A DNA stretch of 64,000 bases from Saccharopolyspora gregorii (lineage in GTDB: Bacteria; Actinomycetota; Actinomycetes; Mycobacteriales; Pseudonocardiaceae), in NCBI RefSeq assembly GCF_024734405.1, contig NZ_CP059556.1, positions 3,038,001 through 3,102,000 of the forward strand. The letters are read 5' to 3'. The notes beneath the pieces are model-generated. The model worked only from the letters and a program-made list of their open reading frames with translations. It did not search any database and was not told where the DNA came from. Positions 43,588 through 60,085 of the stretch are shown here, piece by piece (positions within the stretch are counted from its first letter, which is position 1; every line of letters starts with the position of its first letter). Position numbers and translations under genes: made by a program.

Positions 43588-44313
43588 TCAGGCTGGGGGT
43601 TCGAGCATCGGGCCGCCCGCGACTCCGAGCGCTCGCAGCACGCCGAGCAGGTGGTCGCGCAGGACCGCCTTGGCGGTGTCCGCGGCGCCGTCGCGCACGG
43701 CGGTCGCCACCTCGGCGTGCTGCCGGGTGATGTCCGGGCGGCGGTCCTGGGTCCGGGCTCCGGCGGTGATCCGCAGTTGCCGGTCGCGCAGCGCGTTGTA
43801 GAGGTCGTCGATGATGGGGTTGGCCGCGGCGGCGACCAGCCGGGCGTGGAAGTCGCGGTCGGCCTCGTGCATCTCCGCCGTACTCAGGCCGCTGCCGTCG
43901 CACGCCGCGTGGGCGCTGAGCTCCTCGCCGACCCGGCGCATCGTCGCGGGGCCGTCTGCCGCGATCTTGTCGATGGCGAAGCTCTCCAGCGCCAGCCGGG
44001 CTTCGAGGACGGCGCGGGCCTCGGTGGGGGTGACCGGGACGACCAAGGCTCCCCGCTTCGGGTAGAGCCGCAGGAAGCCTTCGGTCTGCAGCCGCAGGAA
44101 AGCCTCGCGCACCGGGGTGCGGGACATGTTCATGGCGGTGGCCACTTCGCCTTCGGACAGCAGGTGCCCGTCGGGGTAGGTGCCGTCGAGCAGCCCGGTC
44201 TTGACGTGCCGGTAGGCCCGGTCCGCGGCCGGAGGTTCCGCGCTCGCCGGGCCGGTGCCGCCAGGGGCGGCGGTGGGCGGCGGCACGTCGTGGTTCGGTG
44301 TTGCGCTCGACAC
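43588..44313 (-). CDS. GntR-family regulator, FCD (FadR/VanR) type
   Basis: A 241-residue protein: a disordered Pro/Ala start, a GntR winged helix (about 32-95, LLSEGEVATAMNMSRTPVREAFLRLQTEGFLRL) and an FCD ligand domain with metal-binding residues in EADRDFHARLV, RQHAEVATAV and LRDHLLGVL. FCD regulators usually sense carboxylic acids. GTG 44313. It is divergent from an MFS transporter, with a palindrome in the short gap, so it probably controls that transporter and the aldehyde-dehydrogenase-like gene after it. Confidence 0.9.
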   Translation of the reverse strand: MSSATPNHDVPPPTAAPGGTGPASAEPPAADRAYRHVKTGLLDGTYPDGHLLSEGEVATAMNMSRTPVREAFLRLQTEGFLRLYPKRGALVVPVTPTEARAVLEARLALESFAIDKIAADGPATMRRVGEELSAHAACDGSGLSTAEMHEADRDFHARLVAAAANPIIDDLYNALRDRQLRITAGARTQDRRPDITRQHAEVATAVRDGAADTAKAVLRDHLLGVLRALGVAGGPMLEPPA

Positions 44314-44337
44314 GCGCCCATAGTACTGATCCGCGCC

Positions 44338-44358
44338 TTGTATCTATGGTGGATACAA
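44338..44358. promoter_or_regulatory. Probable operator of the FCD regulator
   Basis: TTGTATC (44338-44344) and GATACAA (44352-44358), a perfect 7-bp inverted repeat around TATGGTG in the 67-bp gap between the divergent gntR and MFS genes. TTGTAT-type half-sites are known for FadR/VanR-subfamily regulators. Confidence 0.65.
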
Positions 44359-44380
44359 GTCGAGAGAGGTGGGTGTTCCG

Positions 44381-45655
44381 GTGTCGGTCGGTGTTGCCGG
44401 GGAACAGCAGGTGGCGCGATCGAGCGTCGTCCAGCGCGGGGCCTGGCTGGTGTGGGGCGTGGGTGCGGCGTGCTACTTCGTGGCGTTGTTCCACCGGGCG
44501 AGCTTGGGGGTCGCGGCGCCGGACGCGCTGGTGCGCTTCTCCGCGGGCCCGGGGGTGCTGGCGCTGTTCTCGGCGCTGCAGCTGGGCGTGTACCTGGTGC
44601 TGCAGGTGCCGTCGGGTCTGCTGGCGGACCGGTTGGGGCCGCGGCGGGTCATCACCGGCGGGGTGCTGGCGCTGGCGATCGGTTCCGCGGTGTTCGCGGT
44701 GAGCGGCTCGGTGCTGGGTGGGGTCACCGGCCGGGTGTTCATCGGCATCGGTGACGCGTTCATGTTCACCAACGTGCTGCGGTTGGCGGCGCAGTGGTTC
44801 CCGGCCGACCGCTACGGCCGGGTGGCGGCGCTGACCGGTCTGGTCGGTGGGCTCGGGCAGGTGCTCTCGACGGTGCCGTTGACCTCGGCACTGCACGGTC
44901 TGGGCTGGGTGCCGACGTTCTTGGGGGCGGCGGGTCTGACCGCGGTGTTGGCGGTGGTGGCAGGTGCGGTGATCCGGGATCGGCCGGCCGGGCTGGGCCC
45001 CGAGGTCCCGTCGGAGGTCGGGGAGCGGATCTCCCGCACGTTGCGCGTGGTGGTGGCGCAGCGCGGCACGAAGCAGTCGTTCTGGGTGCACTTCGTGCTC
45101 CTCTCCCAGTTCTTGGCGATCACGACGTTGTGGGGTGCGCCGTGGTTGACCGGTGCGCAGGGCGTGGTGTCGTCGGCGGCCGGTGGTCTGCTGCTGGTGG
45201 CGGCGATCGGGTTCATCGCGGGCTCGTTGGTGGCGAGCCAGTGGATCGCGGGGCGCCCGCGGCGGCGGGAGCGCTACACGCTGGGGATGTCGGTGCTGGT
45301 CGTGCTGACCTGGCTGCTGGTGGTGGTGTGGCCGACGGCCATGTCGGTGCCGCTGCTGGTGGTGGTGCTGGCGGTGCTGGGCTTCGGTGGTGGCGCGGCG
45401 ATGCTGGCGTTCGACGGTGCGCGGGAGGCGAACGCGGTGCACCGCTCGGGTGCGGCGTCGGGCGTGGTGAACATGGGCGGTTTCCTGGCGGGGGTGCTGA
45501 TCCAGGTGCTGGTCGGGTTGGTGCTGGAGGTGGTGTCGGTGCTGCCTGCGCTGGAGGCGTACCGGTGGGCGTTCGTGCCGGTGGTGGTGCTGCTGGCGGT
45601 GGGTACCGCGGGGCAGTGGGTCTGCCGGACGCGTCCGGTGGAGGTGCGGTCGTGA
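44381..45655 (+). CDS. MFS transporter
   Basis: A 424-residue, twelve-helix major facilitator with the loop 2-3 motif GLLADRLGPRRVI. It begins with RGAWLVWGVGAACYFVALFHRASLGVAAPDAL, like the organic-anion/sugar-acid transporters of the MFS. GTG 44381 is preferred because a purine-rich ribosome site lies 7 bp upstream; GTG 44369 is also possible. It shares an apparent operon with the aldehyde-dehydrogenase-like gene (78-bp gap) and is the only solute importer candidate near the catabolic genes that follow. Confidence 0.88.
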   Translation: MSVGVAGEQQVARSSVVQRGAWLVWGVGAACYFVALFHRASLGVAAPDALVRFSAGPGVLALFSALQLGVYLVLQVPSGLLADRLGPRRVITGGVLALAIGSAVFAVSGSVLGGVTGRVFIGIGDAFMFTNVLRLAAQWFPADRYGRVAALTGLVGGLGQVLSTVPLTSALHGLGWVPTFLGAAGLTAVLAVVAGAVIRDRPAGLGPEVPSEVGERISRTLRVVVAQRGTKQSFWVHFVLLSQFLAITTLWGAPWLTGAQGVVSSAAGGLLLVAAIGFIAGSLVASQWIAGRPRRRERYTLGMSVLVVLTWLLVVVWPTAMSVPLLVVVLAVLGFGGGAAMLAFDGAREANAVHRSGAASGVVNMGGFLAGVLIQVLVGLVLEVVSVLPALEAYRWAFVPVVVLLAVGTAGQWVCRTRPVEVRS

Positions 45656-45733
45656 GGGCGCGGCGCGGCTGAGCGCGGTGCCGGTGCGCGGTTAGGGTCG
45701 CGTGATCGGTGCCGTCGGTCGGAGGAGGTCCGG

Positions 45734-47167
45734 GTGTCCACTGCGCTGGAGCTGCGGAACGTCGTGGGCGGGGTGCGGTCGGGAACGGTGGCGGGGGAGT
45801 CGTTGCCGTTGGTGGATCCGGCTTCGGGGGAGGAGTACGGGTCGGCTCCGCTGACGCGGTGGACCGATGTGGACGAGGTGATGGGGGTGGCGGCCGCGGC
45901 GTTCGAGGAGTGGTCGGTGACGACTCCGGGGGAGCGGCAGCGGGTGTTGTTGCGGTGGGCGGAGGAGGTGGAGCGGTCCGCGGAGCGGTTCGTGCTGGCG
46001 GAGTGCCGGAACACGGGCAAGCCGTGGGAGGTGGTGCGGTCGGGGGAGTTGCCGCGGGCGGTGGATCTGCTGCGGTTCTACGCGGGTGCGGCGCGGTTGC
46101 AGGAGGCGGGTGCGGCGGGGGAGTACGTGCCGGGGTGCACGTCGTTCGCGCGGCGGGAGCCGATCGGGGTGTGCGCGCAGGTGGCGTCGTGGACGCATCC
46201 GTTGCTGTTGGCGGTGGCGCGGGTGGCGCCGGCGTTGGCGGCGGGGAATGCGGTGGTGTTCAAGCCTGCGGAGACGACGCCGGTGAGCGCGGTGTTGTTG
46301 GCGGAGTCGGCGGTGGGGGTGTTGCCGTCGGGGTTGTTCAACGTGATCTGCGGTGATCGGGACAGTGGTCGGGCGATGGTGGCGCACGAGGTGCCGGGGA
46401 TGTTCTCGATCACGGGGACGGTGCGGTCGGGGATGGAGGTGGCGGGTGCTGCGGCGGCGGATTTGAAGCGGGCGCACTTGCAGTTGGGTGGGAAGGCGCC
46501 TGCGGTGGTGTTCGGGGATGCGGAGGTGGGTGCGGCGGCGCGGGGTATCGCGGCGGCGGCGTTCGGGGATGCGGGGCAGAGCTGCACGGCGGCGAGCCGG
46601 GTGCTGGTGGCGGAGGGCGTGTACGAGGAGTTGGTGGCGGAGTTGGCGGCGCAGGCGGAGGTGTGGCGGCCGGGGCCGCCGCAGGATCCGGATGCGGCGT
46701 TCGGTCCGTTGAACAGCGCTGGGCAGCGGGAGTTGGTGGCGGGGTACGTGGAGCGGTTGCCCGCGCATGCGCGGGTGGTGGCGGGTGGTCGTCGTCGTGG
46801 TGGGCGGGGGTTCTTCTACGAGGCGACGGTGGTGGCGGACGTGGAGCAGTCGGACGAGTTGGTGCAGCACGAGGTGTTGGGTCCGGTGGTGGTGGTGCAG
46901 CGGTTCTCCTCGGAGGAGGAGGCGGTGGAGTTGGCGAACGGGGTGCGCTACGGGTTGGTGGCGAGTGTGTGGACGCGTGATCATGCGCGGGCGATGCGGA
47001 TGTCGCGGGCGTTGCAGGCCGGGACGGTGTGGGTGAACGTGCATCGGCCGTTGGTGGCGGAGATGCCGCACAGCGGGTTCAAGCATTCGGCGTCGGCGCG
47101 GGATTTCGGCCGGTTCGGGTTGGAGGAGTACAGCCGGGTGAAGCACGTGATGTCCGGTCTGGGGTGA
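45734..47167 (+). CDS. Aldehyde-dehydrogenase-like protein lacking two catalytic residues
   Basis: A 477-residue member of the ALDH superfamily, nearest in look to aminobutyraldehyde/betaine aldehyde dehydrogenases. The nucleophile Cys284 (GQSCTA) and the EVLGPVV motif are present. The general-base Glu is Gln250 (HLQLGGKAP instead of LELGGK), and the oxyanion-hole Asn is Thr154 (SWTHPLL instead of PWNFPLL). Activity may be lost or changed, for example to an esterase or a binding role. The gene uses TTG for leucine and GGT far more than its neighbours. GTG 45734 has GGAGGAGG upstream. Confidence 0.85.
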   Translation: MSTALELRNVVGGVRSGTVAGESLPLVDPASGEEYGSAPLTRWTDVDEVMGVAAAAFEEWSVTTPGERQRVLLRWAEEVERSAERFVLAECRNTGKPWEVVRSGELPRAVDLLRFYAGAARLQEAGAAGEYVPGCTSFARREPIGVCAQVASWTHPLLLAVARVAPALAAGNAVVFKPAETTPVSAVLLAESAVGVLPSGLFNVICGDRDSGRAMVAHEVPGMFSITGTVRSGMEVAGAAAADLKRAHLQLGGKAPAVVFGDAEVGAAARGIAAAAFGDAGQSCTAASRVLVAEGVYEELVAELAAQAEVWRPGPPQDPDAAFGPLNSAGQRELVAGYVERLPAHARVVAGGRRRGGRGFFYEATVVADVEQSDELVQHEVLGPVVVVQRFSSEEEAVELANGVRYGLVASVWTRDHARAMRMSRALQAGTVWVNVHRPLVAEMPHSGFKHSASARDFGRFGLEEYSRVKHVMSGLG

Positions 47168-49374: not shown

Positions 49375-50799
49375 CTATCGGCGGGGGCGCTGCCAGGGGT
49401 GGGCTCGTTCGTAGGCGCGGCAGGCGCGCAGGACGCGGGCGTCGGAGTGGCGGGGTCCGACGATCTGCAGGCCGATGGGCAGGCCGTCGCCGGTGAACCC
49501 GCAGGGGATGCTGGCGGCGGGCTGCTGGGTCATGTTGAACGGGTAGGTGAACGGGGTCCACCCGGTCCAGCGTCGGCTGGTGGCCTCGGCGGGTGCTTCG
49601 AGGCCGGCGTCGAACGGGGCGATGCCGACGGTGGGGGTCAGCAGCAGGTCGTAGGTCTCGTGGAAGGCGCCCATGCGCTGGCCGAGGAGCATGCGGGTGT
49701 TGGTGGCTTCGAGGTAGTCCTGGGCGTCGTAGGTGAGGCCTTGTTCGACGATCTCGGCGAGCCCGGGGTCGAGCAGGGCGCGTTGGGCGTCGGTGAGGTG
49801 CTCGACGGATTTGGCGGCGCCGGAGAACCACAGCACGTGGAAGTCCTCGACGGGGTCGCTGAAGCCGGGGTCGGCGTGCTCGACGGTGGCGCCGAGTTCG
49901 GCGAAGGTGCGGGCGGCGCGGGTGACGGCGTCGGCGATCTCGGGGTCGACGGTGGCGAAGCCGAGGTCGGTGCTCAGGGCGATGCGCAGGCCGGCGACGC
50001 CGTCGTCGAGTCCGTCGAGGAAGGACTGCGCGGGTGGTTCGAGCGCGGACCAGTCGCGGCTGTCGGGTCCGCTGAGCACGTCGAGCATGAGCGCGGTCTC
50101 GGTGACGGTGGTGGTCATCGGTCCGGCGTGGGCCATGGTGCCGTAGGGGCTGGCGGGGTAGTGGGGGATGCGCCCGTAGGTGGGTTTGATGGTGCAGATG
50201 CCGCAGAAGGCCGCGGGGATGCGCACGGATCCGCCGCCGTCGGTGCCGATGGCCAGGGGCGCCATGCCGAGTGCGACGGCGGCGCCTGCTCCGCCGCTGG
50301 AGCCGCCGGGGGTGCGCTCGGGGTTCCAGGGGTTGCGGGTGATGCCGTTGAGGGTGTTGTCGGTGACGCCCTTCCAGGCGAGTTCGGGGGTGGTGGTCTT
50401 GCCGACGAACACGGCTCCGTGTTCGCGCAGCCGGGCGACGGCGGGTGCGTCGGCGGTCCAGGGCTGGTGGGGGTCGATGGTGCGGGAGCCGCGGAGGGTG
50501 GGCCAGTCCCGGGTGAGGAAGATGTCCTTGATGGAGGTGGGCACGCCGTCGAGGCGGCCGCGGGGTTCGCCGCGGGACCAGCGGTCTTCGGCGGCGCGGG
50601 CCTGGTCGAGGGCGCGGTCGGCGTCGACGAGGCAGTAGGCGTTGACGGCGGGGTCGGCGTCGGCGATGCGGGCGAGGGTGGCTTCGGTGGCTTCGACGGG
50701 GGAGAGCTCTCGGGTGGCGAAGCGTTCGAGCATGTCGGTGGCGGTGAGGTCCGCCGGGGTGGTGGCGTGGGTGGGTGCCGCGTCTGGGGTCGAGGTCAT
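49375..50799 (-). CDS. Amidase-signature-family amidase
   Basis: Hydrolyses a C-N amide bond. The 474-residue product has the complete Ser-cisSer-Lys triad: Lys91 (TSIKD), Ser167 in TPGGSSGG and Ser191 in GTDGGGSVR. The overall pattern is that of amidases on small or aryl amides rather than GatA: there is no GatCAB partner gene. ATG 50799 overlaps the stop of the 2-hydroxyacid dehydrogenase gene by 4 nt (ATGA), so both are made together from the regulated promoter at about 51.9 kb or its leftward counterpart. Substrate unknown. Confidence 0.92.
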   Translation of the reverse strand: MTSTPDAAPTHATTPADLTATDMLERFATRELSPVEATEATLARIADADPAVNAYCLVDADRALDQARAAEDRWSRGEPRGRLDGVPTSIKDIFLTRDWPTLRGSRTIDPHQPWTADAPAVARLREHGAVFVGKTTTPELAWKGVTDNTLNGITRNPWNPERTPGGSSGGAGAAVALGMAPLAIGTDGGGSVRIPAAFCGICTIKPTYGRIPHYPASPYGTMAHAGPMTTTVTETALMLDVLSGPDSRDWSALEPPAQSFLDGLDDGVAGLRIALSTDLGFATVDPEIADAVTRAARTFAELGATVEHADPGFSDPVEDFHVLWFSGAAKSVEHLTDAQRALLDPGLAEIVEQGLTYDAQDYLEATNTRMLLGQRMGAFHETYDLLLTPTVGIAPFDAGLEAPAEATSRRWTGWTPFTYPFNMTQQPAASIPCGFTGDGLPIGLQIVGPRHSDARVLRACRAYERAHPWQRPRR

Positions 50800-51779
50800 C
50801 GGTTCCGCTCCGTTCCGCTGACGTAGCCGCGCTGCTTGTCCACTACGTTGCGCAGTTCGCCGCCGTGGGCGTAGCTGCGCAGGTTGTCCAGGAAGAGTTC
50901 CACCAGTTCGGTGGTCCAGCCGATGGTGTCGCCGGACATGTGCGGGGAGATCAGGACGTTGGGCATCTCCCACAGGGGTGAGGTGCTGGGGAGGGGTTCG
51001 GTGTCGAAGACGTCGAGGGCGGCGCCGGCGATGGTGCCGGCTTCGAGGGCTTCGACGAGGTCGGGTTGGACGACGAGTTCGCCGCGTCCGACGTTGATCA
51101 GGCGTGCGGTGGGCCGGAACCGGGTGAGGGCGTCGGCGTCGATGAGCCCGTGGGTCTGCTCGGTCAGGGGTGCGGCGAGCACGACGTAGTCGTAGTCGCC
51201 GAGGACGTCGTGGAGCCGGTCGGAGGCGTGCACGGTGCCGAAGTCGGGGTCGCCGGTGCGGGCGACGCGTCCGGCGCCGTGCACGTGGAGTCCGGCGGCG
51301 GTGAGCCTGCCTGCGATGGCGCGTCCGATGGGGCCGGTGCCGACGACGAGGGCGGCCTTGCCCGTGATGCGTTCGGTTTCGCGGTGGCGCCATTCGCGGC
51401 GGTCTTGCAGGCGCACGCTGGTGTGCAGGTCCTTGGCGAAGGCGAGGACGGTGGCCAGGACGTATTCGGCCATGGGTGCGTCGAAGATGCCGCGGGAGTT
51501 GGTGAGGGCGACTTGGGAGTCGAGCAGGTCGGGGAACAGCAGCCGGTCGACGCCGGCGCTGGCGGCGTGGACCCAGCGCAGCGCGTCGGCGTGCGCCCAG
51601 GTGTCGGCGACGGCGTCGGAGCGGAAGTCCCACACGAACAGCACGTCGGCGCCGGGCAGTGCGGTGGCGAGCTCGTCCTCGGTGGTGGGGCGGAGTTCGG
51701 CGGCCGCGGCGATGCGGTCCATGGCCGGTGGCGGGTTGCCACCGTGGAGGACGACGACGGTGGGGGTGTGGTGGGTCAT
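50796..51779 (-). CDS. D-isomer-specific 2-hydroxyacid dehydrogenase
   Basis: An NAD(P)-dependent oxidoreductase of 327 residues: Rossmann motif VVGTGPIGRAIA (about 143-154), then the catalytic Arg (NVGRGELV), Glu (DVFDTEPLP) and His (ISPHMSGDT). It reads like the hydroxypyruvate/glyoxylate reductase branch. First gene of a two-gene leftward unit with the amidase. It is divergent from the DUF3830 operon; the 309-bp gap 51780-52088 holds one copy of the cluster operator. Confidence 0.92.
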   Translation of the reverse strand: MTHHTPTVVVLHGGNPPPAMDRIAAAAELRPTTEDELATALPGADVLFVWDFRSDAVADTWAHADALRWVHAASAGVDRLLFPDLLDSQVALTNSRGIFDAPMAEYVLATVLAFAKDLHTSVRLQDRREWRHRETERITGKAALVVGTGPIGRAIAGRLTAAGLHVHGAGRVARTGDPDFGTVHASDRLHDVLGDYDYVVLAAPLTEQTHGLIDADALTRFRPTARLINVGRGELVVQPDLVEALEAGTIAGAALDVFDTEPLPSTSPLWEMPNVLISPHMSGDTIGWTTELVELFLDNLRSYAHGGELRNVVDKQRGYVSGTERNR

Positions 51780-51888: not shown

Positions 51889-51928
51889 TTGACACGCTAG
51901 GAAGCGCTCGTAGGATTGTCAACAATCC
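51889..51928 (+). promoter_or_regulatory. Promoter and operator of the DUF3830-racemase operon (site 1)
   Basis: TTGACA (51889-51894), 16 bp, TAGGAT (51911-51916): a near-consensus promoter reading rightwards. GGATTGT-CA-ACAATCC (51913-51928), a perfect palindrome, overlaps the -10 box and the start point, a classical place for a repressor. The leader to ATG 52089 is about 165 nt. The same palindrome recurs at 53.4 and 58.8 kb. Confidence 0.75.
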
Positions 51929-52088
51929 GCAGGTACCTCGCTGCGGGGCCGCCACCGGTCGGTGCGCGCGGCCCGCGGGGGAGGTCTTCGGCCCTGGGCA
52001 GGGCACGGCGTGACCGGTGGTGGTCGCGAGCCGAGACCGCGGAGACCGATTCCCATCTGCACGTCCCCCTCATGGAACGGAATTCACC

Positions 52089-52583
52089 ATGCCCAGGTAC
52101 CTGTCGATCACGTTGGAGAAGCGCGGTGTCTCGTGCGTGGCGGAGTTGCTGGACGCCGACGCGCCCCGAACCTGCGAGGCCGTGTGGCAGGCGTTGCCGC
52201 AGGCGGGCCCGGTGCACCACGCGAAGTACGCGCGCAACGAGATCTACACGATGGTCGAGCGCTTCGCCGCGCGGGAACCGGGTCAGGAGAACCCGACGGT
52301 GACGCCGATCCCCGGTGACCTCGTGTACTTCTCCTTCGACAGCGGGATGCTCGACCGCGGGTTCAAGGAGGAGAAGGACCTGCAGGAGCTGCCGGGGGTG
52401 ATCGACCTGGCGATCTTCTACGGGCGCAACAACCTGCTGCTCAACGGGGACGTGGGCTGGGTGCCGGGCAACGTCTACGGCTCCATCGTGGAGGGCTTGG
52501 CGGAGTTCGCGGCGGCCTGCAACGACGTGTGGCGCGCGGGCAGCGTCGGGGAGCGGTTGCGCTACGAACGCCGCTCGGGCTGA
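52089..52583 (+). CDS. DUF3830 family protein
   Basis: A 164-residue protein starting MPRYLSITLEKRGVSCVAELL, followed by DAPRTCEAVWQALP and HAKYARNEIY. This is the DUF3830 pattern, a family with a cyclophilin-like barrel as I recall, found in catabolic clusters with Asp/Glu racemases but without a known reaction. First gene of a rightward unit with the racemase 14 bp downstream. ATG 52089 has only a weak purine stretch upstream. Confidence 0.85.
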   Translation: MPRYLSITLEKRGVSCVAELLDADAPRTCEAVWQALPQAGPVHHAKYARNEIYTMVERFAAREPGQENPTVTPIPGDLVYFSFDSGMLDRGFKEEKDLQELPGVIDLAIFYGRNNLLLNGDVGWVPGNVYGSIVEGLAEFAAACNDVWRAGSVGERLRYERRSG

Positions 52584-52597
52584 CGGGGGCCGGACCG

Positions 52598-53359
52598 ATG
52601 CCACCGGAGGACCTGCTGGGCGGGCTGCCAGGTCCGGTGCCGCAGCGCGGGGTGGGCGTGGTCGCCCCGTTCGACCTGGCGATGGATCGCGAGTTGTGGC
52701 GGTGGACGCCGCCGGAGGTGTCGCTGTACCTGACGCGGACCGCGTTCGTGCCGGTGCCGATGACGGTGGAGATGGCGTCGTTGATCTCCGACGAGGCGGC
52801 GGTGCACGCCGCGACGCGCGACCTGCTGACCCCGGAGCCGGAGGTGGTGGCCTACGCGTGCGCGTCGGGCAGTTTCGTCGACGGTGCGGCCGGGGAGCGG
52901 AACCTGACCTCGGTGATGCGGGAGGCGGGTGCGCCCGCGGCGGTGACGACCTCGGGTGCGCTGGTGCAGGCGCTGGAGGTGCTCGGGGCGCGGCGGGTGG
53001 CGATCGCGACGCCGTACGTGGCGAACGTGACCGAGCGGCTGGTGGGGTTCCTCGGCGAGCACGGTGTCGAGGTGGTCACCAGCGTGGGGCTGGGCCTGCT
53101 GGGCCGGATCTGGCAGGTCGGGTACCGGCAGGTGGTGGACATCGTGCGCTCGGCGGACCGCCCGGACGCGGAGGCGATGTTCATCAGCTGCACGAACCTG
53201 CCGACCTACGACATCATCGGGCCGCTGGAGCAGGAGCTGGGCAAACCGGTGCTCACGGCGAACCAGGTGACGATGTGGGCGGCGCTGCGGTCGATGGGGT
53301 TGCCCGCGGTGGCCCCGCAGCAGCGGCTGGTGCGGGCCTGCGCCGCGCCGGCCGCCTGA
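52598..53359 (+). CDS. Asp/Glu-racemase-fold enzyme, two-cysteine type (maleate-isomerase-like)
   Basis: A 253-residue protein with both catalytic cysteines of the superfamily: Cys88 (YACASGSFVDG) and Cys198 (FISCTNLPTYD). The ACASGSF and SCTN context is that of maleate cis-trans isomerases and arylmalonate decarboxylase relatives. It could isomerise or decarboxylate a dicarboxylate; amino-acid racemisation is less likely. Co-transcribed with DUF3830. A related gene lies 160 bp downstream under its own operator. Confidence 0.87.
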   Translation: MPPEDLLGGLPGPVPQRGVGVVAPFDLAMDRELWRWTPPEVSLYLTRTAFVPVPMTVEMASLISDEAAVHAATRDLLTPEPEVVAYACASGSFVDGAAGERNLTSVMREAGAPAAVTTSGALVQALEVLGARRVAIATPYVANVTERLVGFLGEHGVEVVTSVGLGLLGRIWQVGYRQVVDIVRSADRPDAEAMFISCTNLPTYDIIGPLEQELGKPVLTANQVTMWAALRSMGLPAVAPQQRLVRACAAPAA

Positions 53360-53432
53360 TCGGCGCCGCTGCGGCGTGTCGATCGAATTACGAAAGCGTT
53401 TCTGCCATGTCGGGCGGCCCCGAACCGTGCGG

Positions 53433-53448
53433 TAACATTGTCGACAAT
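53433..53448 (+). promoter_or_regulatory. Promoter -10 and operator of the second racemase-gntR unit (site 2)
   Basis: TAACAT (53433-53438), a fair -10 box, runs into ATTGTCGACAAT (53437-53448), a perfect palindrome. The layout TAnnATTGTCnACAAT equals site 1. The -35 is poor, so an activator or a second factor may be needed. It lies 72 bp before the start of the second racemase gene. Confidence 0.7.
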
Positions 53449-53519
53449 TGACCGCCGGTCCGGTGTCGTTCGCCCGTGGTCCCGTCGGGATCGCGGGGCG
53501 ATCAAGGAGGGAGCTGCCG

Positions 53520-54278
53520 GTGTCGATCACCGCGGGAATTCTCTACCCCGGATACAGCGCCGAGGACGACTACCCGGCCCTGCAACGGCTGCTCGGCGAG
53601 GACGTCGCGCTGCCGCTGGTGCACACCGAGATGCGCGAGGACGCCCACCGGGTGGACGCGCTGCTCGACGTCGGTTCCGACGAGGTCCTGGCCGACGGTG
53701 CCCGCGCGCTGCTGGACCACGAGGTCGAAGCGGTGATCTGGGCGTGCACCAGCGGCAGCTTCGTCTTCGGCTGGGACGGGGCCCGCGAGCAGGTGGAGAA
53801 GTTGCAGGCCGTGACCGGGCTGCCGACCTCCAGCACCTCGTTCGCGTTCGTGCACGCCGCCGCGCGCCTCGGGCTGCGGCGGGTGGCGGTCGCCGCGACC
53901 TACCCGGCCGACGTCGCCGACCGGTTCGCGGCGTTCTTGGCGCACGGCGGCATCGAGGTCACCCGGCTCTCCAGCCGCGGCATCGTCACCGCCGCCGAGG
54001 TCGGCACGCTGGGCCGGGAGCAGGTGCTGGAGTTCGCCGCGGCCAACGACGATCCACCCGCGCAGGCGCTGCTGATGCCGGACACGGCGCTGCACACCGC
54101 GCAGTGGCTCGACGAGCTCGAAGGGCGCGTGGGCAAGCCGGTGCTGACCGCCAACCAGGTCAGCGCGTGGGAAGTGCTGCGACTGGCCGGGGACACCCGC
54201 GCCCGCGAAGGGCTCGGGGCGTTGTTCCGGCAGACCGGTCCGGCGGACGGGCCGCTCGGGGGAGCGGGCCCGCACTAG
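53520..54278 (+). CDS. Asp/Glu-racemase-fold enzyme, one-cysteine variant
   Basis: A 252-residue paralogue of the preceding racemase-fold protein. Cys76 (IWACTSGSFVFG) is kept, but where the second catalytic Cys is expected the sequence reads LLMPDTALHT, with Asp188 in its place. A one-Cys enzyme cannot do a two-base racemisation in the usual way; decarboxylase, isomerase or lyase chemistry is possible. GTG 53520 has AGGAGGGAG upstream. The gntR gene follows 16 bp after its stop, so both are autoregulated through site 2. Confidence 0.87.
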   Translation: MSITAGILYPGYSAEDDYPALQRLLGEDVALPLVHTEMREDAHRVDALLDVGSDEVLADGARALLDHEVEAVIWACTSGSFVFGWDGAREQVEKLQAVTGLPTSSTSFAFVHAAARLGLRRVAVAATYPADVADRFAAFLAHGGIEVTRLSSRGIVTAAEVGTLGREQVLEFAAANDDPPAQALLMPDTALHTAQWLDELEGRVGKPVLTANQVSAWEVLRLAGDTRAREGLGALFRQTGPADGPLGGAGPH

Positions 54279-54294
54279 CGGAGGCGATGAGGAG

Positions 54295-55014
54295 ATGGTG
54301 TCGGTGCTCGGAGTCGACGAGCAGAACCAGCACGGCGAGTTAGAGCCGGTGCAGCGCAAGTCCACCGCGGCGATCGTGGCCGACCAGCTGCGGTCGGCGA
54401 TCATGTACGGGTCGTTGCCGCCGGGCAGCCAGATGGGCGAGGCGGAACTGGCGTCCCGGCTCGGGGTCAGCCGCGGCCCGCTGCGGGAGGCGATGCAGCG
54501 GCTGGTGCAGGAAGGGCTGCTGCACAGCGAACCGCACCGCGGGTTGTTCGTGACGACGCTGGACGCCGACGACGTCGCCGACATCTACCTGGCGCGGCTG
54601 GCGGTGGAGCGCGCGGCCTGCGAGCGGATCGTGCGCCACCACCGGGTGGAGGCGGTCGCGGAGCTGACCGCCGCGCAGGCCCGCATCGTCTCGGCCGCGG
54701 GCCTCGGCGACGCGATCGAGCTCTCCGACGCCGACCAGGAGTTCCACGAGACGCTGGTGCGGGTTTCGGGCAGCCCCCGGTTGCAGCGGATGGCGCAGAC
54801 GCTGCTGGTGGAGAAGCGGATGTGCTTGACGGCGTTGCAGGACAAGTACACCGCGGACCCGCAGACCCTCGTCGACGAGCACGCGGGCCTGGTGGATGCG
54901 ATCGAGTCCGGCGACGAGGCGCTGCTGCTGGCGCGGCTGGAGGCGCACATGAACGACGCGCTGGAGCGGCTCAACGCCTTCACCCCGCTGCTGTCGGAGT
55001 CCGACGCGAGCTGA
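54295..55014 (+). CDS. GntR-family regulator, FCD type; probable master regulator of the cluster
   Basis: About 239 residues: a winged helix at about 20-92 (QMGEAELASRLGVSRGPLREAMQRLVQEGLL) and an FCD domain with the metal-binding residues in DQEFHETL, DEHAGLVDA and EAHMNDALERL. FCD regulators bind short palindromes of the TTGTnnACAA kind, which is what the three cluster sites show. ATG 54295 (GGAGG 10 bp upstream) or GTG 54304 (TGAGGAG 9 bp upstream) may be the start. A terminator follows at once. Confidence 0.9.
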   Translation: MVSVLGVDEQNQHGELEPVQRKSTAAIVADQLRSAIMYGSLPPGSQMGEAELASRLGVSRGPLREAMQRLVQEGLLHSEPHRGLFVTTLDADDVADIYLARLAVERAACERIVRHHRVEAVAELTAAQARIVSAAGLGDAIELSDADQEFHETLVRVSGSPRLQRMAQTLLVEKRMCLTALQDKYTADPQTLVDEHAGLVDAIESGDEALLLARLEAHMNDALERLNAFTPLLSESDAS

Positions 55015-55021
55015 CCGGCCA

Positions 55022-55051
55022 GCGCCGGGCCGCGGTGGGGCGGCCCGGCGC
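55022..55051. terminator. Convergent terminator, gntR / gldA
   Basis: GCGCCGGGCCGC (55022-55033) pairs perfectly with 55040-55051 over a 6-nt loop, in the 54-bp gap between two convergent genes. Confidence 0.85.
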
Positions 55052-55068
55052 GGAACACAGTGCAAGGG

Positions 55069-56217
55069 TCAGTGCGCGGGCGCGACCGGTTCGGGCAGGC
55101 CCGCTTCGGCGCGCACGGCGCGGCCGGTGACCTCCACGGCCTTCAGCGCGTCCACGACGGCGTCCGCGGTCACCGGGAACGGCAGGTTGTGGATCGTCTC
55201 GTCCGGGTGGCAGGCCGCTTCGGCGGCGGTGCGCAGCACCGAGTCGTCGGCGTCGCCGAGCCCGGCCTCGGTCAGCGTGGTGGGCAGTCCGACGCGGGTG
55301 GTGAACTCGACGAAGTCGTGGATCTCGCCGCTCGGGCGGCCTTCCAGGATCAGCTGCGCGATCGACCCGATGTTGACCTTCTGGCCGTGGGCGAGGCCGT
55401 GGGTGTGCGGGACGGCGGTGAGCCCGTCGTGGATGGCGTGGGCGGCGGCGAGCCCGCCGGATTCGAAGCCGAGCCCGGACAGCAGCGTGTTGGCCTCCAC
55501 GACCTCCTCCACCGCGGGGGTGACCAGGTGGCGTTCGACGGCGCGCACCGCGGGGATCGCCGATTCGTGCAGGATGTCCCAGGACAGCTGAGCCAGCGCT
55601 GCTCCGGCGCGGGTCGCGGCCCCACCGGCCATGGTGGTGGCGTTGGACTGGCGCACGGCGCGAGCTTCGATCCAGGTGGCCAGCGCGTCGCCGATCCCGG
55701 CGATGAGGAACCGGGCGGGCGCGTCGGCGACCAGCTGGGTGTCGACGAGGACCAGCGCGGGGTTGCGGTGGTAGAAGCGGTAGGACTCGAAGGACCCGTC
55801 GGCGGTGTAGACGACCGACAGCGCCGAGCAGGGCGCGTCGGTGGAGGCGACGGTGGGGACGCTGACCACGGGCAGCCCGGTGTCGTCGCCGGCGGCCTTG
55901 GCGGTGTCGATCGGTGCGCCACCACCGACGCCGACGAGCACGTCGGCGCCCTGGGCGCGGGCGGCCTCGGCGACGCGGCCGCTCTCGGCGGCGGTCGGCA
56001 CTCCGCCGAACCGGTCGAACAGCACCGGCAGCCCGGCGGCGGTGAACGATTCGGTGATCGCGTTCTCGGTCAGGCCGCGCACCACGTCGTCGGCGAGCAC
56101 CAGCGGGCGGGCGCCGAGCTTCGCCACGTAGGAACCCAGCGAGTCCAGGGCGCCGCGGCCCTGCACGTAGCGGCCGGGGGAGATCAGCGTGCGCAGTGCT
56201 GCGGACGTGTCGGTCAT
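55069..56217 (-). CDS. gldA: Glycerol dehydrogenase (iron/zinc alcohol dehydrogenase family)
   Basis: Oxidises glycerol or a similar vicinal diol to the ketone with NAD+. The 382-residue product has the cofactor loop GVGGGAPIDTAKA (96-107), VPTVASTDAPCSALSVVYT (GldA-typical, not the maleylacetate-reductase form) and zinc ligands Asp177 (GIGDALATW), His260 (AAAHAIHDG) and His277 (HGLAHGQK). ATG 56217 has GGAAGGG upstream. It stands alone; no dihydroxyacetone kinase is near, so within this cluster it may act on another 1,2-diol or hydroxy-ketone. No copy of the cluster operator lies in its 219-bp upstream gap. Confidence 0.93.
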   Translation of the reverse strand: MTDTSAALRTLISPGRYVQGRGALDSLGSYVAKLGARPLVLADDVVRGLTENAITESFTAAGLPVLFDRFGGVPTAAESGRVAEAARAQGADVLVGVGGGAPIDTAKAAGDDTGLPVVSVPTVASTDAPCSALSVVYTADGSFESYRFYHRNPALVLVDTQLVADAPARFLIAGIGDALATWIEARAVRQSNATTMAGGAATRAGAALAQLSWDILHESAIPAVRAVERHLVTPAVEEVVEANTLLSGLGFESGGLAAAHAIHDGLTAVPHTHGLAHGQKVNIGSIAQLILEGRPSGEIHDFVEFTTRVGLPTTLTEAGLGDADDSVLRTAAEAACHPDETIHNLPFPVTADAVVDALKAVEVTGRAVRAEAGLPEPVAPAH

Positions 56218-56436
56218 GGATGGTGCCCTTCCTGCGTTCGACCCGGTGGACCGGGGTTCGCCCCGAGGGGATCGTGCGGTGCCCGCACGCGGCAACCCGC
56301 TGCTCCACATGCTGATAACGCGCTACCCGCGACCTGCCGGAGCGGAAACGCCCCGGCGGTTCCGGTGCAGGTCGGAGGTTCGGGCGAGCGTGCCGGGCCG
56401 GTCCCGGGGTGATCGGTGTCGCAGTGCGGGGCGGCT

Positions 56437-57144
56437 TCAGCGCCGCGGCAGGAACGCCAAGGCCCTCCGGGCGTCGGCGGTGCCGAGTTCGGCGAGGCGG
56501 GTGCGCCAGAACGCCCACCGGTCGGGGAAGAAGCCGTGGCCGCGGATCCCGCGGTCCCGCGCCAGCGGCCCGAGCCGGTCGGGTCCGCGATCGTGGTCGG
56601 CGAACGCCCGGCGGGTGCGGGCGAACCCGGCCAGCACCGGTCCGCCGTGCTCGGCCCAGCACAGCACCGCGGCCAGGTCCGCGGGTGGTTCGGGCTGTTC
56701 GAGGTGCTCGCGCAGCGCCCACAGGGCGTGCAGGGAGAAGTCGATGCCCGCGGTGGTCAGGCGGGCGGCGAACGCGGCCAGCGGCACGGCACCGGTGGGG
56801 TCGGCGTCGCAGACCTCGCGCAGCTGTGCGCCGAAGCAGGGCAGGTCGGTGAACACCTCCAGCCCCCACACTCGGTCGGCGCCGGGCAGCGGGCCCAGCT
56901 CGCGCAGCGCCACCAGCAGCGCCACCAGCGCGGGCTGGGTGCCGGGGCGGGTGCGGGCGGTGGTGAGCACCGGCTGCCAGGCGGCCCAGAGGATCTCGGC
57001 GATCGCGTCCTCGCCGAGTCCCGCGGCGCCTGCGCGGCGCACCGGTGCGGCGAAGCGGTCGGCGCAGGCGGTGGGTGGTTCGTCGCCGCGCAGGTGCTCG
57101 GCGAGCAGCGCCCGGTAGTGCTCGGCGGCGGTCTCGTGATCCAC
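56437..57144 (-). CDS. Hypothetical protein, 235 aa
   Basis: An alpha-helical, soluble-looking protein without membrane spans or catalytic motifs I recognise. Distinct stretches are ITAEILWAAWQP-like helix AIAEILWAAWQPVLTTAR, then GLEVFTDLPCFGAQLREVCD and the C-terminal GHGFFPDRWAFWRTRLAELG. Composition and codon use match the neighbours, so it is likely a real gene. GTG 57144. It lies between gldA and gabD in the same direction (219 and 86 bp gaps); whether it belongs to the catabolic cluster is unknown. Confidence 0.75.
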   Translation of the reverse strand: MDHETAAEHYRALLAEHLRGDEPPTACADRFAAPVRRAGAAGLGEDAIAEILWAAWQPVLTTARTRPGTQPALVALLVALRELGPLPGADRVWGLEVFTDLPCFGAQLREVCDADPTGAVPLAAFAARLTTAGIDFSLHALWALREHLEQPEPPADLAAVLCWAEHGGPVLAGFARTRRAFADHDRGPDRLGPLARDRGIRGHGFFPDRWAFWRTRLAELGTADARRALAFLPRR

Positions 57145-57230
57145 CGGGGCGACGCTACCGGGCCCGGCCGTGGCGGTGCCCCCGCGCGCAGCGCACGCGG
57201 GGGCACCGGATCCGGTTGCGGGTCAGCGGA

Positions 57231-58724
57231 TCACAGGCCGCCGATGGCGATGTACTTGGTCTCCAGGAACTCGTCGATGCCGACCTTGCCGCCTTCGCGG
57301 CCCAGCCCGGAGGCCTTGACCCCGCCGAACGGGGCGGCCGGGTTGCTCACCACGCCCTGGTTGAGGCCGATCATGCCGCTCTCCAGGGCTTCGGAGACGC
57401 GCAGCGCCCGGTTGAGGTCGCGGGTGTAGACGTAGGCGACCAGCCCGTACTCGGTGTCGTTGGCCTGGTCGATGGCGCTCTGCTCGTCGGTGAAGGTGCT
57501 GATGGGCGCGACCGGCCCGAAGATCTCCTCGCGGGTCATGCGTGCTTGGGCGGGCACGTTCTTGAGGACGGTCGGCGGGTAGAAGTAGCCCTCGCCGTCG
57601 TGGCGGGAGCCGCCGACGACGACCTCGGCGCCGTGCCCGACGGCGTCGTTGACGAGTTCGTCGACCTTGCCGAGCTGGGTGGCGTCGATCAGCGGGCCCA
57701 CCTGCACGTCGTCGGCGACGCCGCGGCCGAGGCGCAGCGACCCCATGCGTTCGGCGAGGCGCCGGGAGAACTCGTCGGCGACGTCGGCGTGCACGTAGAA
57801 CCGGTTGGCCGCGGTGCAGGCCTCGCCGATGTTGCGCATCTTGGCCTGCATGGCGCCTTCGACGGCGGTGTCGAGGTCGGCGTCGGCGAACACCAGGAAC
57901 GGGGCGTTGCCGCCGAGTTCCATCGACACGTTGAGGACCTGCTCGGCGGACTGCTCGATGAGCTTGCGGCCCACCGAGGTGGAGCCGGTGAAGGAGAGCT
58001 TGCGGGCGCGCCCGTCGCGGATCATCGGTTCCATCACGGCACCGGCGCCGACGGCGGTCACCACGTTGAGCACCCCGTCGGGCAAGCCCGCTTCCTGCAG
58101 GATCTCGGCGAGCGCGAGCATCGACAGCGGCGTCTGGTGCGCGGGTTTGATCACCGAGGTGCAGCCGGCGGCGATGGCCGGGCCGATCTTGCGGGTGCCC
58201 ATGGCCATCGGGAAGTTCCACGGGGTGATCAGCAGGGTGGGGCCGACGGGCTGCTGGGTGACCAGGAAGCGGCCGGTGCCGCTGGGGGCGACGGCGTAGT
58301 CGCCGCCGATGCGCACGGCCTCTTCGGCGAACCAGCGGAAGAACTCCGAGGCGTAGGTGATCTCGCCGCGCGCTTCGGGCAGCGGTTTGCCCATTTCCAG
58401 GGTCATCAGCAGGGCGAGGTCCTCGTGGCGCTGCTGGATGAGCTCGTAGGCGCGGCGCAGGATCTCCCCGCGTTCCCGCGGCGGGTGTTTGGCCCAGGTG
58501 GCCTGGGCTTCGTGCGCGGCGGCGAGGGCGGCGATGCCGTCTTCGGGGCTGGCGTCGGCGACCGAGCACAGCGCTCGCCCGGTGGAGGGGTCTTCGACCT
58601 GGTAGGTGCGGTCGCCGGTGGCCGCGCGCCACTTGCCGCCGATGAGCAGCTGCTTGGGGGCGGCGTCGACGACGGCGGCCTCTCGGGACTCGGTGCCTGC
58701 GGGGGAGCTGCTGGAGGTGCTCAT
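57231..58724 (-). CDS. gabD: Succinate-semialdehyde dehydrogenase (NAD(P)+)
   Basis: Oxidises succinate semialdehyde to succinate, or a related semialdehyde. The 497-residue product is a complete ALDH: Asn170 (TPWNFPM), Glu269 (MELGGNAP), Cys303 (GEACTAANR) and EEIFGPVAP, plus the C-terminal GLGREGGKVGIDEFLETKYI typical of GabD. An N-terminal extension of about 22 residues precedes the fold. ATG 58724 has a weak ribosome site. Divergent from the aminotransferase gene over operator site 3, so the two are switched on together as a GABA-shunt-like pair. Confidence 0.93.
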   Translation of the reverse strand: MSTSSSSPAGTESREAAVVDAAPKQLLIGGKWRAATGDRTYQVEDPSTGRALCSVADASPEDGIAALAAAHEAQATWAKHPPRERGEILRRAYELIQQRHEDLALLMTLEMGKPLPEARGEITYASEFFRWFAEEAVRIGGDYAVAPSGTGRFLVTQQPVGPTLLITPWNFPMAMGTRKIGPAIAAGCTSVIKPAHQTPLSMLALAEILQEAGLPDGVLNVVTAVGAGAVMEPMIRDGRARKLSFTGSTSVGRKLIEQSAEQVLNVSMELGGNAPFLVFADADLDTAVEGAMQAKMRNIGEACTAANRFYVHADVADEFSRRLAERMGSLRLGRGVADDVQVGPLIDATQLGKVDELVNDAVGHGAEVVVGGSRHDGEGYFYPPTVLKNVPAQARMTREEIFGPVAPISTFTDEQSAIDQANDTEYGLVAYVYTRDLNRALRVSEALESGMIGLNQGVVSNPAAPFGGVKASGLGREGGKVGIDEFLETKYIAIGGL

Positions 58725-58793
58725 CTCTGTTCTGCGGGCCTTCCGTGTCGGCGGGTGGACATGACGCAGCCGTGATGGTTGCATGTCCCTCGC

Positions 58794-58810
58794 GATTGTC
58801 AACAATCCTA
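58794..58810 (-). promoter_or_regulatory. Promoter -10 and operator between gabD and gabT (site 3)
   Basis: Read on the minus strand: TAGGATTGTTGACAATC (58810-58794), that is a -10 box TAGGAT (58810-58805) merging into the palindrome GATTGT-TG-ACAATC. This is the layout of sites 1 and 2, pointed at gabD. The palindrome is only 22 bp before the ATG of the divergent aminotransferase gene, so bound regulator would affect both. Confidence 0.72.
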
Positions 58811-58828: not shown

Positions 58829-60085
58829 ATGGCTGAGCTCTCGTCGGCGTTGAAGCAGGCGACACCAGTGCTGGCCGCCCGCGGGGAGGGCGTCTACCTC
58901 TACGACGAGGACGACCGCCGCTACCTCGACTTCACCGCCGGCATCGGCGTCACCAGCACCGGACACTGCCACCCCCGCGTGGTCGAAGCAGCGCAGCGCC
59001 AGGTGGGCACGCTGATCCACGGCCAGTACACGACGGTCATGCACCGGCCGCTGCTCCAGCTGACCGAACGCCTCGGCGAGGTGCTGCCCGCCGGGCTGGA
59101 CCGGATGTTCTACGTCAACTCCGGCAGCGAAGCGGTGGAGGCCTCGGTGCGGCTGGCCCGCCAGGCCACCGGGCGCCAGACCATCGTCGCCTTCCACGGC
59201 GGGTTCCACGGCCGCACCATGGGCGCCGGGGCCCTGACCACCTCGGGTGTGAAGGTGCGCGCCGGGATCGGGCCGATGATGCCGGGCGTGGCGTTCAGCC
59301 CGTTCCCCGAGACCTACCGGCACGGCTGGTCGGAGACCGAAGCGGTCCGCTTCGCCCTCGCCGAGCTCGACCAGCTGCTGCTGACCGTCACCTCCCCCAA
59401 GGACACCGCCGCGTTCATCGTCGAACCCGTCCTCGGCGAAGGCGGCTACATCCCCACGCCCCCGGAATTCCTCGAAGGACTGCGCGAACGCGCCGACCAC
59501 CACGGCATCCTGCTCATCGCCGACGAGGTGCAGACCGGCGTCGGGCGCACCGGGAAGTTCTGGGGCCACCAGCACTCCACCATCACACCCGACATCCTGA
59601 TCACCGCCAAGGGCATCGCCAGCGGATTCCCCATCTCCGGCATCGCCGCCTCCGCCGAACTGATGGGCAAGGCGTGGCCCGGTTCGCAGGGCGGCACCTA
59701 CGGCGGCAACGCGGTCGCCGCGGCCGCCGCCGTGGCCACCCTGGACGTGGTGCGCGACGAGCACCTCGTGGACAACTCCGCCGAGCAGGGCGCCCGCCTG
59801 CAGGAAGGGCTGCGCAAGGTCGCCGCCGAACACCCCGTCATCGGCGAGGTCCGCGGCCGCGGCCTCATGGTCGGCAACGAGTTCACCACCGCCGACGGCC
59901 GGCCCGACACCACCACCGCGACCCGCGCGCACGCCGCCGCCGCCGAACGGGGCCTGCTGCTGCTGACCTGCGGGCCCGCGGGCAACGTGGTGCGGATGAT
60001 CCCGCCGCTGATCGTCACCGCCGAGCAGGTCGACGACGGCGTCGCCCTCTGGTCGGAGGCGGTGTCGGCGGCCGTCCACGGCTGA
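58829..60085 (+). CDS. gabT: Class III (omega) aminotransferase, GABA transaminase-like
   Basis: PLP-dependent transfer of an omega-amino group, for instance GABA to succinate semialdehyde. The 418-residue product has YVNSGSEAVEASVRLAR (phosphate cup), FHGGFHGRTMGA, EPVLGEGGYIP, Asp232 (LIADEVQTGVGRTG) and the Schiff-base Lys261 (ITAKGIASGFP). The length and GIGV-STGHCHPRVVEA opening fit GabT/acetylornithine-type enzymes; the real amino donor could be another omega-amino acid. ATG 58829 has GGAG 6 bp upstream. Divergent from gabD over site 3. Confidence 0.92.
   Translation: MAELSSALKQATPVLAARGEGVYLYDEDDRRYLDFTAGIGVTSTGHCHPRVVEAAQRQVGTLIHGQYTTVMHRPLLQLTERLGEVLPAGLDRMFYVNSGSEAVEASVRLARQATGRQTIVAFHGGFHGRTMGAGALTTSGVKVRAGIGPMMPGVAFSPFPETYRHGWSETEAVRFALAELDQLLLTVTSPKDTAAFIVEPVLGEGGYIPTPPEFLEGLRERADHHGILLIADEVQTGVGRTGKFWGHQHSTITPDILITAKGIASGFPISGIAASAELMGKAWPGSQGGTYGGNAVAAAAAVATLDVVRDEHLVDNSAEQGARLQEGLRKVAAEHPVIGEVRGRGLMVGNEFTTADGRPDTTTATRAHAAAAERGLLLLTCGPAGNVVRMIPPLIVTAEQVDDGVALWSEAVSAAVHG

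Follow-up and report, generated by a model that had tools for sequence, protein, structure and literature searches.

Gene cluster and palindromic sites

We analysed a 64,000-nucleotide stretch of the Saccharopolyspora gregorii genome (contig NZ_CP059556.1, positions 3,038,001 to 3,102,000; the window), in which copies of a 12-bp palindrome occupy the gaps of a gene cluster containing a GntR-type regulator gene of the FCD class (gntR). The first gap separates genes for an amidase and a D-2-hydroxyacid dehydrogenase family protein (hadh) on the minus strand from those for a DUF3830 protein and RacA on the plus strand (site 1). The second lies between racA and the racB-gntR pair (site 2), and the third between a gabD-like gene on the minus strand and a gabT-like gene on the plus strand (site 3). 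The first-pass annotation had located the palindromes at 51911, 53433 and 58810 (minus strand). They are present at these positions, and the pattern ATTGTYRACAAT has three copies in the window. The sites display the features of operators of the FadR/FCD subfamily of GntR regulators: they are A/T-rich palindromes with TKGT/ACMA boxes, of the form ATTGT-YR-ACAAT, with a 2-nt gap between GT and AC (2-3 nt in the class).

Table 1 Genes of the cluster and putative regulatory elements at the three sites (window coordinates).
Feature	Position	Strand	Evidence
Operator 1, ATTGTCAACAAT	51915..51926	.	12/12 columns identical in 27 loci, one per genus
Operator 2, ATTGTCGACAAT	53437..53448	.	Exact palindrome upstream of racB in 44/54 loci
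Operator 3, ATTGTCAACAAT on the plus strand, between gabD and gabT	58795..58806		Exact upstream of gabD in 45/50 gabD-bearing loci
-35 box TTGACA, rightward DUF3830-racA promoter	51889..51894	+	16 bp from -10 in 54/55 site-1 loci
Predicted -10 box TAGCGT, leftward hadh-amidase promoter	51894..51899	-	TAGCGT 41, TACCGT 13, TACGGT 1 of 55
-10 box TAGGAT, rightward promoter, runs into operator 1	51911..51916	+	TATGAT 30, TAGGAT 24, TAGCAT 1 of 55
Predicted leftward -35 box TTGACA inside operator 1	51922-51917	-	Centre CA in 55/55 loci
-10-like box TAACAT, racB-gntR promoter	53433..53438	+	TA here in 39/40 site-2 copies
-10 box TAGGAT, gabD promoter, runs into operator 3	58805..58810	-	TA here towards gabD in 25/45 copies
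gntR, GntR/FCD regulator, proposed repressor at all sites	54295..55014	+	Pfam GntR 64.7 bits, FCD 75.2 bits
Amidase	49375..50799	-	NCBIfam PRK06169 771.5 bits, exceeding cutoff 506
hadh, D-2-hydroxyacid dehydrogenase family	50796..51779	-	Pfam 2-Hacid_dh_C 166.7 bits
DUF3830 protein	52089..52583	+	Pfam DUF3830 204.8 bits; solved relative 3kop, uncharacterised protein
racA, AMDase/racemase-fold, two conserved Cys	52598..53359	+	Pfam Amdase 104.3 bits
racB, AMDase/racemase-fold, one conserved Cys	53520..54278	+	Pfam Amdase 97.5 bits
gabD-like aldehyde dehydrogenase	57231..58724	-	Succinate-semialdehyde dehydrogenase (SSADH) model 580.7 bits, under cutoff 646.35; best solved chain 3jz4, SSADH
gabT-like class III aminotransferase	58829..60085	+	Pfam Aminotran_3 415.3 bits; best solved chain 1sf2, 4-aminobutyrate aminotransferase

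Scanning the window with TANNATTGTCNACAAT at up to two mismatches returned five matches at three physical places, 51911, 53433 and 58791-58810, the last two being read on both strands; 100 dinucleotide shuffles of the window gave a mean of 0.03 matches and a maximum of one. The genome (6.34 Mb, a single contig) has four places that match the stricter pattern ATTGTCNACAAT, the cluster accounting for three, and none that match its reversed control. One mismatch adds two places, both reading ATTGTTAACAAT. The fourth perfect copy (G000:C1:2982263) lies outside the window, 108 kb from the cluster, and the six genomic places of ATTGTYRACAAT are accordingly the three window sites, this copy and two in gallate-type clusters. 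The motif is not widespread in the genome, in keeping with the first-pass annotation, and its rarity in both shuffles and genome scan shows that the copies are not due to chance.

Conservation with the regulator

Of 150 genomes sampled from the family, 93 (counting that of the window) encode a GntR orthologue (E<=1e-40), and these cover 32 of 46 genera. All 93 carry ATTGTYRACAAT, as against 19 of the 57 genomes without GntR (Fisher p 1e-21, kinship ignored), which bears out the expectation that the motif is conserved with this regulator in relatives. Since the genomes share ancestry, the p value and the k-of-n figures given here and below overstate independence. An earlier count with GATTGTCCACAAT had given 93/93 against 26/57; many of its matches in GntR-less genomes have the centre CC and resemble DnaA boxes, TTGTCCACA, and the co-occurrence was therefore recounted with ATTGTYRACAAT.

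The locus set consists of the window and loci from 60 of the other 92 genomes (the 41 best minus one, and 20 hand-picked for genus spread), making 61 loci from 28 genera, 1.18 Mb in all, with GntR identities of 54-100%. Genes were mapped by tblastn, keeping matches that cover at least half of the query (45% for the map of regions from genomes without GntR). In this set ATTGTYRACAAT has 147 exact copies, every one in a gap that faces cluster genes and none inside a matched gene: 55 upstream of hadh, four of which also face racB, 45 between gabD and gabT, 40 upstream of racB alone and 7 upstream of gntR. Nineteen permuted half-sites have no copy in the same 1.18 Mb. Three copies occur in 38 loci, two in 10 and one in 13. 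An exact palindrome precedes hadh in 55 of 56 hadh-bearing loci, racB in 44 of 54 and gabD in 45 of 50, and this phylogenetic footprint strongly supports the regulon that the first-pass annotation had predicted for the FCD GntR. With the looser pattern ATTGTNNACAAT (at most one mismatch) the copies outside the gaps are two in locus L095 and one with centre GG in L115, apparently within hadh. Neighbouring genes outside the set (an MFS transporter, an aldehyde dehydrogenase at 45.7 kb, the second GntR, a gene at 48.2 kb, an iron-alcohol dehydrogenase and a LytR-type gene) have no upstream copy in the 61 loci. The iron-alcohol dehydrogenase (55069-56220), present in 6 of 61 loci and there without an upstream site, and the gene at 56437-57144, present in 3 of 60, were accordingly rejected as regulon members.

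The association extends beyond the family. In a phylum sample of 396 genomes, 20 have a GntR relative at E<=1e-40, the window's own among them. Exact copies occur in 17 of the 19 relatives' loci outside the family (41-53% identity), with 33 copies in total against one for all 19 control half-sites. The palindrome is present in 39 of 44 named genome loci, a set whose genera include Saccharopolyspora, Halosaccharopolyspora, Actinopolyspora, Pseudonocardia, Nocardia, Mycolicibacter and Georgenia.

In Actinopolyspora-type loci, in which no racA, racB, DUF3830, hadh or amidase gene was detected, the palindrome lies about 400 bp upstream of gntR. Four loci (L187, L197, L201, L202) have one or no cluster gene besides gntR and different neighbours, and carry the palindrome within about 1 kb of gntR. 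Because these loci keep the site without the enzymes, the palindrome tracks the regulator, not the enzymes. In L202 (8828-10273), from another family, palindromes and the same type of GntR flank a DJ-1/PfpI-like gene and have transporter genes nearby (both identified by eye) in place of the racA/racB set.

Promoter boxes and the layout of site 1

The dinucleotide TA occupies positions -4/-3 relative to the palindrome in 55/55 site-1 and 39/40 site-2 copies, while its mean frequency at other offsets is 0.026 and 0.008, respectively. At site 2, no conserved -35 box was seen by eye among the copies listed. At site 1, the rightward -10 box reads TAKGAT in 54/55 loci. On the opposite strand, the predicted leftward -10 box overlaps the rightward -35 box by one base and stands 17 bp from a minus-strand TTGACA formed by the palindrome centre. 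This centre is CA in 55/55 copies at site 1, while CG, CA and TG are all used at sites 2 and 3. With one locus taken per genus (27 genera), the palindrome at site 1 is invariant, the information content per column is 1.84 bits in the block holding the -35 and reverse -10 boxes, 1.02 in the spacer and 0.17 and 0.25 in the flanks; conservation spans about 40 bp, to which the close kinship of the family contributes.

By its sequence, site 1 looks like a pair of divergent promoters that interlock over a single, shared operator. We lean slightly towards a reading in which a rightward TTGACA-16-TAKGAT and a leftward TTGACA-17-TANNNT promoter share 38 bp and form a regulatory knot, so that the repressor, the rightward polymerase or the leftward polymerase could occupy the site, only one at a time, and the two enzyme sets would be coupled across 27 genera. 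The CA centre would then be held at site 1, where elsewhere CG or TG is allowed, because it makes the leftward -35 box. Outside the family the layout weakens: all nine site-1 loci have TA at the -10 position, but only two of nine have a TTGACA -35 box; the centre is CA in seven of nine, and six of those seven have TANNNT at the reverse -10 position. Site 1 offers a compact case for the study of one operator governing two interlocked promoters.

A distant dehydrogenase gene and other copies

The fourth perfect genomic copy precedes a gene for a glutamate-dehydrogenase-like protein, and the palindrome recurs there in 21 of the best 30 loci for this protein. The centre is TG in 21/21, so that the palindrome itself includes a TTGACA; 18 bp further on stands TAGCTT (17), TAACTT (2), TACCTT (1) or TAATTT (1). 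In three loci from another family (L186, L193, L199) a homologue of the dehydrogenase (50-54%) lies inside the cluster with an exact palindrome in front, and in L195 a homologue inside the cluster has a palindrome with one mismatch. Because the distant gene carries the palindrome and joins the cluster in another family, the predicted regulon is not purely local. The three sites within the cluster, by which the first-pass annotation had defined a local regulon, stand as part of it, together with the site 108 kb away.

Distant copies number 22 in 13 GntR-bearing genomes; 19 of the regions were examined, three copies with centre TA being set aside. The dehydrogenase gene accounts for 8 of the 19. 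The others (L167-L174, L176, L178, L179) all come from GntR-bearing genomes, seven of them of the Actinopolyspora type, and four of these seven read TATTATTGTCGACAAT, which again has a -10-like box. All eleven may be additional members of the regulon.

In L186, palindromes at 1911-1960 and 4939 also precede genes for a ProP-type transporter, a class III aminotransferase and a DoeA-like M24 peptidase, neighbours that give a hint of the pathway chemistry.

The two gallate-type copies of this genome lie in clusters of the gallate/protocatechuate type that resemble each other and both have an FCD GntR nearby (L008, G000:C1:3577000-3592000; L009, G000:C1:4898000-4914000). In both, ATTGTTAACAAT, a GATTGTTAACAATC palindrome, is found upstream of a 4-oxalomesaconate tautomerase-like gene; the tautomerase of L009 scores above the model cut-off, and that of L008 is named by likeness.

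The regulator and its proposed action

GntR has the domain architecture of the FadR/FCD subfamily, with an N-terminal GntR winged helix (64.7 bits, cutoff 27) and a C-terminal FCD domain (75.2 bits, cutoff 24.3). Nine of ten DNA-contact positions checked, E49, S59, R60, G61, P62, R64, E65, R82 and G83, are invariant in 80/80 sequences; S59-R60-G61-P62, R64 and E65 belong to the recognition helix. The tenth, A50 at the place of FadR Arg35, varies between Ala, Thr, Val, Ile and Ser and is never Arg in the 80 sequences. In FadR-type proteins, Arg at this place was found to favour G/C in the TKGT box, and Pro at the place of FadR Thr47 to avoid it (Suvorova 2015, PMC4494728). The non-Arg residue and the Pro found here would fit TTGT over TGGT, and the palindrome has the predicted T. 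Putative metal ligands, assigned by analogy with the three histidines of HypR and TM0439, are conserved in 80/80 (D96, D147, H151) or 79/80 sequences (H196, H218).

The gntR gene lies one gene further from site 2 than first annotated: racB is directly 3' of the site, and gntR begins only 16 bp after racB. Given this spacing, site 2 would control both genes, and autorepression would run via a racB-gntR transcript. A predicted operator precedes the regulator's own unit, and in seven loci the palindrome lies less than 600 bp upstream of gntR itself.

We consider it very likely that the palindromes are operators at which a GntR dimer blocks promoters, with autorepression, coordinate control that includes the distant gene, and release by a carboxylate. 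The sites, their rarity in the genome, their conservation with gntR and with promoter-like boxes, and the fourth site are observations; that GntR binds and represses rather than activates, and what the inducer and the pathway are, is inferred. As the palindromes overlap promoter boxes, a dimer on a single palindrome would block RNA polymerase. One bound dimer at site 1 would silence both directions together, rightward DUF3830-racA and leftward hadh-amidase; racB-gntR would be shut from site 2, gabD (and probably gabT) from site 3, and the glutamate-dehydrogenase-like gene from the distant site. GntR would be released, and all units induced together, when one of the pathway's intermediates, a carboxylate, occupies the FCD metal site (putative ligands D96, H151, H196, H218).

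The pathway would be catabolism of an amide- or amino-containing carboxylic compound. Judging from the enzymes, an amide group may be removed, RacA/RacB may act as isomerase or decarboxylase, and there may be transamination and semialdehyde oxidation; the glutamate-dehydrogenase-like enzyme would recycle amino groups. Such a pathway, widely conserved in actinobacteria, would rely on DUF3830 and arylmalonate-decarboxylase-fold proteins, whose function is not known. The operator copies mark its genes and can aid the search for the substrate; together they provide a regulator-operator pair with a well-bounded gene set, one distant gene among them, and a testable inducer question.

Several observations weigh against this proposal. 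Exact palindromes are absent upstream of racB in 10/54 loci and of gabD in 5/50, and upstream of the distant dehydrogenase gene in 9/30, of which seven are the seven least similar loci. The -10 overlap, first annotated for all three palindromes and upheld at sites 1 and 2 (55/55 and 39/40), occurs at site 3 in only 25/45 copies. Outside the family, 2/19 loci have one-mismatch copies only, and in L203 some 6 kb separate gntR from the exact copies. The palindrome is missing from five of the 44 named loci: one is a fragment of 4.5 kb, and the other four have only distant matches (30-44% identity). No cluster gene lies near 11 of the 19 distant copies, which are unexplained. Finally, 12 regions taken from 10 of the 19 palindrome-bearing genomes without GntR show a gallate-type FCD regulator in five cases and neither regulator in seven. 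The half-site seems to be common to two FCD families, and cross-talk between them is possible.

Alternative explanations

The sharing of the half-site leads to the best-surviving alternative, that the sites are mainly bound, or bound as well, by another FCD paralogue, such as a gallate-cluster regulator or the GntR at 43588-44313. The genome holds 34 FCD matches, its two gallate-type clusters carry ATTGTTAACAAT, and in 5 of the 12 regions from genomes without the local GntR the gallate-type regulator lies within 3.5 kb of ATTGTYRACAAT. The palindrome nevertheless accompanies the local GntR in 61/61 family loci, and the gallate sites of this genome have the centre TA as opposed to CA, CG or TG. 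The second candidate is found in only 11/61 loci with an upstream site in none, and control by it was rejected. On balance we regard a leading or shared role for a paralogue as unlikely.

A little less probable again is that GntR binds the sites and activates some of the units. FadR-type proteins repress or activate depending on position (PMC6608401), but in this genome each of the four sites overlaps a -10-like or -35-like box, as repressor sites typically do. That the conserved sequence is promoter only, kept for polymerase and not as an operator, is highly improbable: the palindrome region does contain -10 and -35 boxes within the conserved stretch at site 1, yet promoter boxes need no symmetry over all 12 bp, and this symmetry is identical in 27/27 genera at site 1, recurs at sites 2 and 3 and at the dehydrogenase gene in other positions relative to the boxes, and follows the presence of gntR.

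Further features of the cluster genes

The amidase gene overlaps the 3' end of hadh by 4 bases, and the two are therefore probably on one transcript. RacA and RacB resemble arylmalonate decarboxylase (AMDase) and EutA, yet score below the curated NCBIfam cut-offs. Among orthologues of at least 50% identity, RacA keeps Cys88 and Cys198 in 46/46, and RacB keeps Cys76 in 53/53 with PDT in place of the second Cys. The name 'racemase' needs care, since RacB keeps the first Cys only and both proteins are below the cut-offs. Likewise, GabD and GabT are both under the specific cut-offs, which leaves the 4-aminobutyrate (GABA)/succinate-semialdehyde reading of this pair unproven.

An in-frame ATG upstream of gabD (58725-58784, minus strand) would give MQPSRLRHVHPPTRKARRTE, and several genera share the surrounding DNA (plus strand GATGGTTGCATG; judged by eye among the rows listed). 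It could be either the true start or a short leader. Elsewhere in the window, at 43588-47167, the second FCD GntR is divergent from genes for an MFS-type transporter and an aldehyde dehydrogenase.

Comparison with known systems

Open-licence literature searches for DUF3830, with or without GntR and FCD, and for arylmalonate decarboxylase with GntR returned no paper, and broader searches there listed none with a title or abstract opening that describes this regulon. A Mycobacterium smegmatis nitrogen-limitation paper (PMC4617892) names amidase and GntR genes, and was set aside as its available text has no link to this cluster. The palindrome string searched with GntR gave one relevant paper, on PrpR (PA0797), the FCD GntR of the Pseudomonas aeruginosa 2-methylcitrate operon. 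PrpR is a repressor that binds its own upstream region in gel shifts, and its predicted operator ATTGTCGACAAT is the same 12-mer as the core of site 2 (PMC9765439). The likeness lies in regulator type and operator; PrpR serves a propionate pathway in another phylum, and its available text contains nothing on interlocked promoters (PMC9765439). Among the ten window proteins scanned, none is prpB, prpC, acnD or prpF, which speaks against a 2-methylcitrate system of the PrpR type.

RacA and RacB match the EutA model of ectoine utilisation (eut/doe) weakly, and L186 has the DoeA-like M24 peptidase and the class III aminotransferase. Scores of 116.3 and 111.6 bits for EutA (cut-off 318) and 220 for DoeA (cut-off 575) argue against membership; eutB and eutC were not searched for.

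HypR of Streptomyces coelicolor is comparable in its manner of control, being an actinobacterial FCD GntR autorepressor over several separate catabolic loci, with a potential histidine metal site (PMC6608401). Autorepression and multi-locus control are what we propose here, whereas the HypR motif CTNTGC(A/C)ATGTCAC and its hydroxyproline pathway differ (PMC6608401). Repression by related proteins has been demonstrated for both PrpR (PMC9765439) and HypR (PMC6608401). The survey of the FadR subfamily gives the consensus NyGTM-N0-1-KACNy and reports that single sites in divergons usually serve both operons (Suvorova 2015, PMC4494728). Both consensus and divergon rule match the palindromes described here; the sections of the survey consulted name no group for this cluster (PMC4494728).

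For the layout of site 1, the nearest parallel is found in the bidirectional promoters of E. coli, where a shared -10 element makes two starts, mostly 18 bp apart (PMC12825309). There too, one stretch of DNA engages polymerase in both directions and one binding excludes the other. In contrast, at site 1 the -10 box of one promoter and the -35 box of the other share the operator, and the predicted starts are about 36 bp apart. The regulon itself belongs to a known type, as the FadR/FCD motif and this kind of switch have been described; what is new is the predicted interlocked promoter layout at site 1 and the distant dehydrogenase gene as a proposed member of the regulon.

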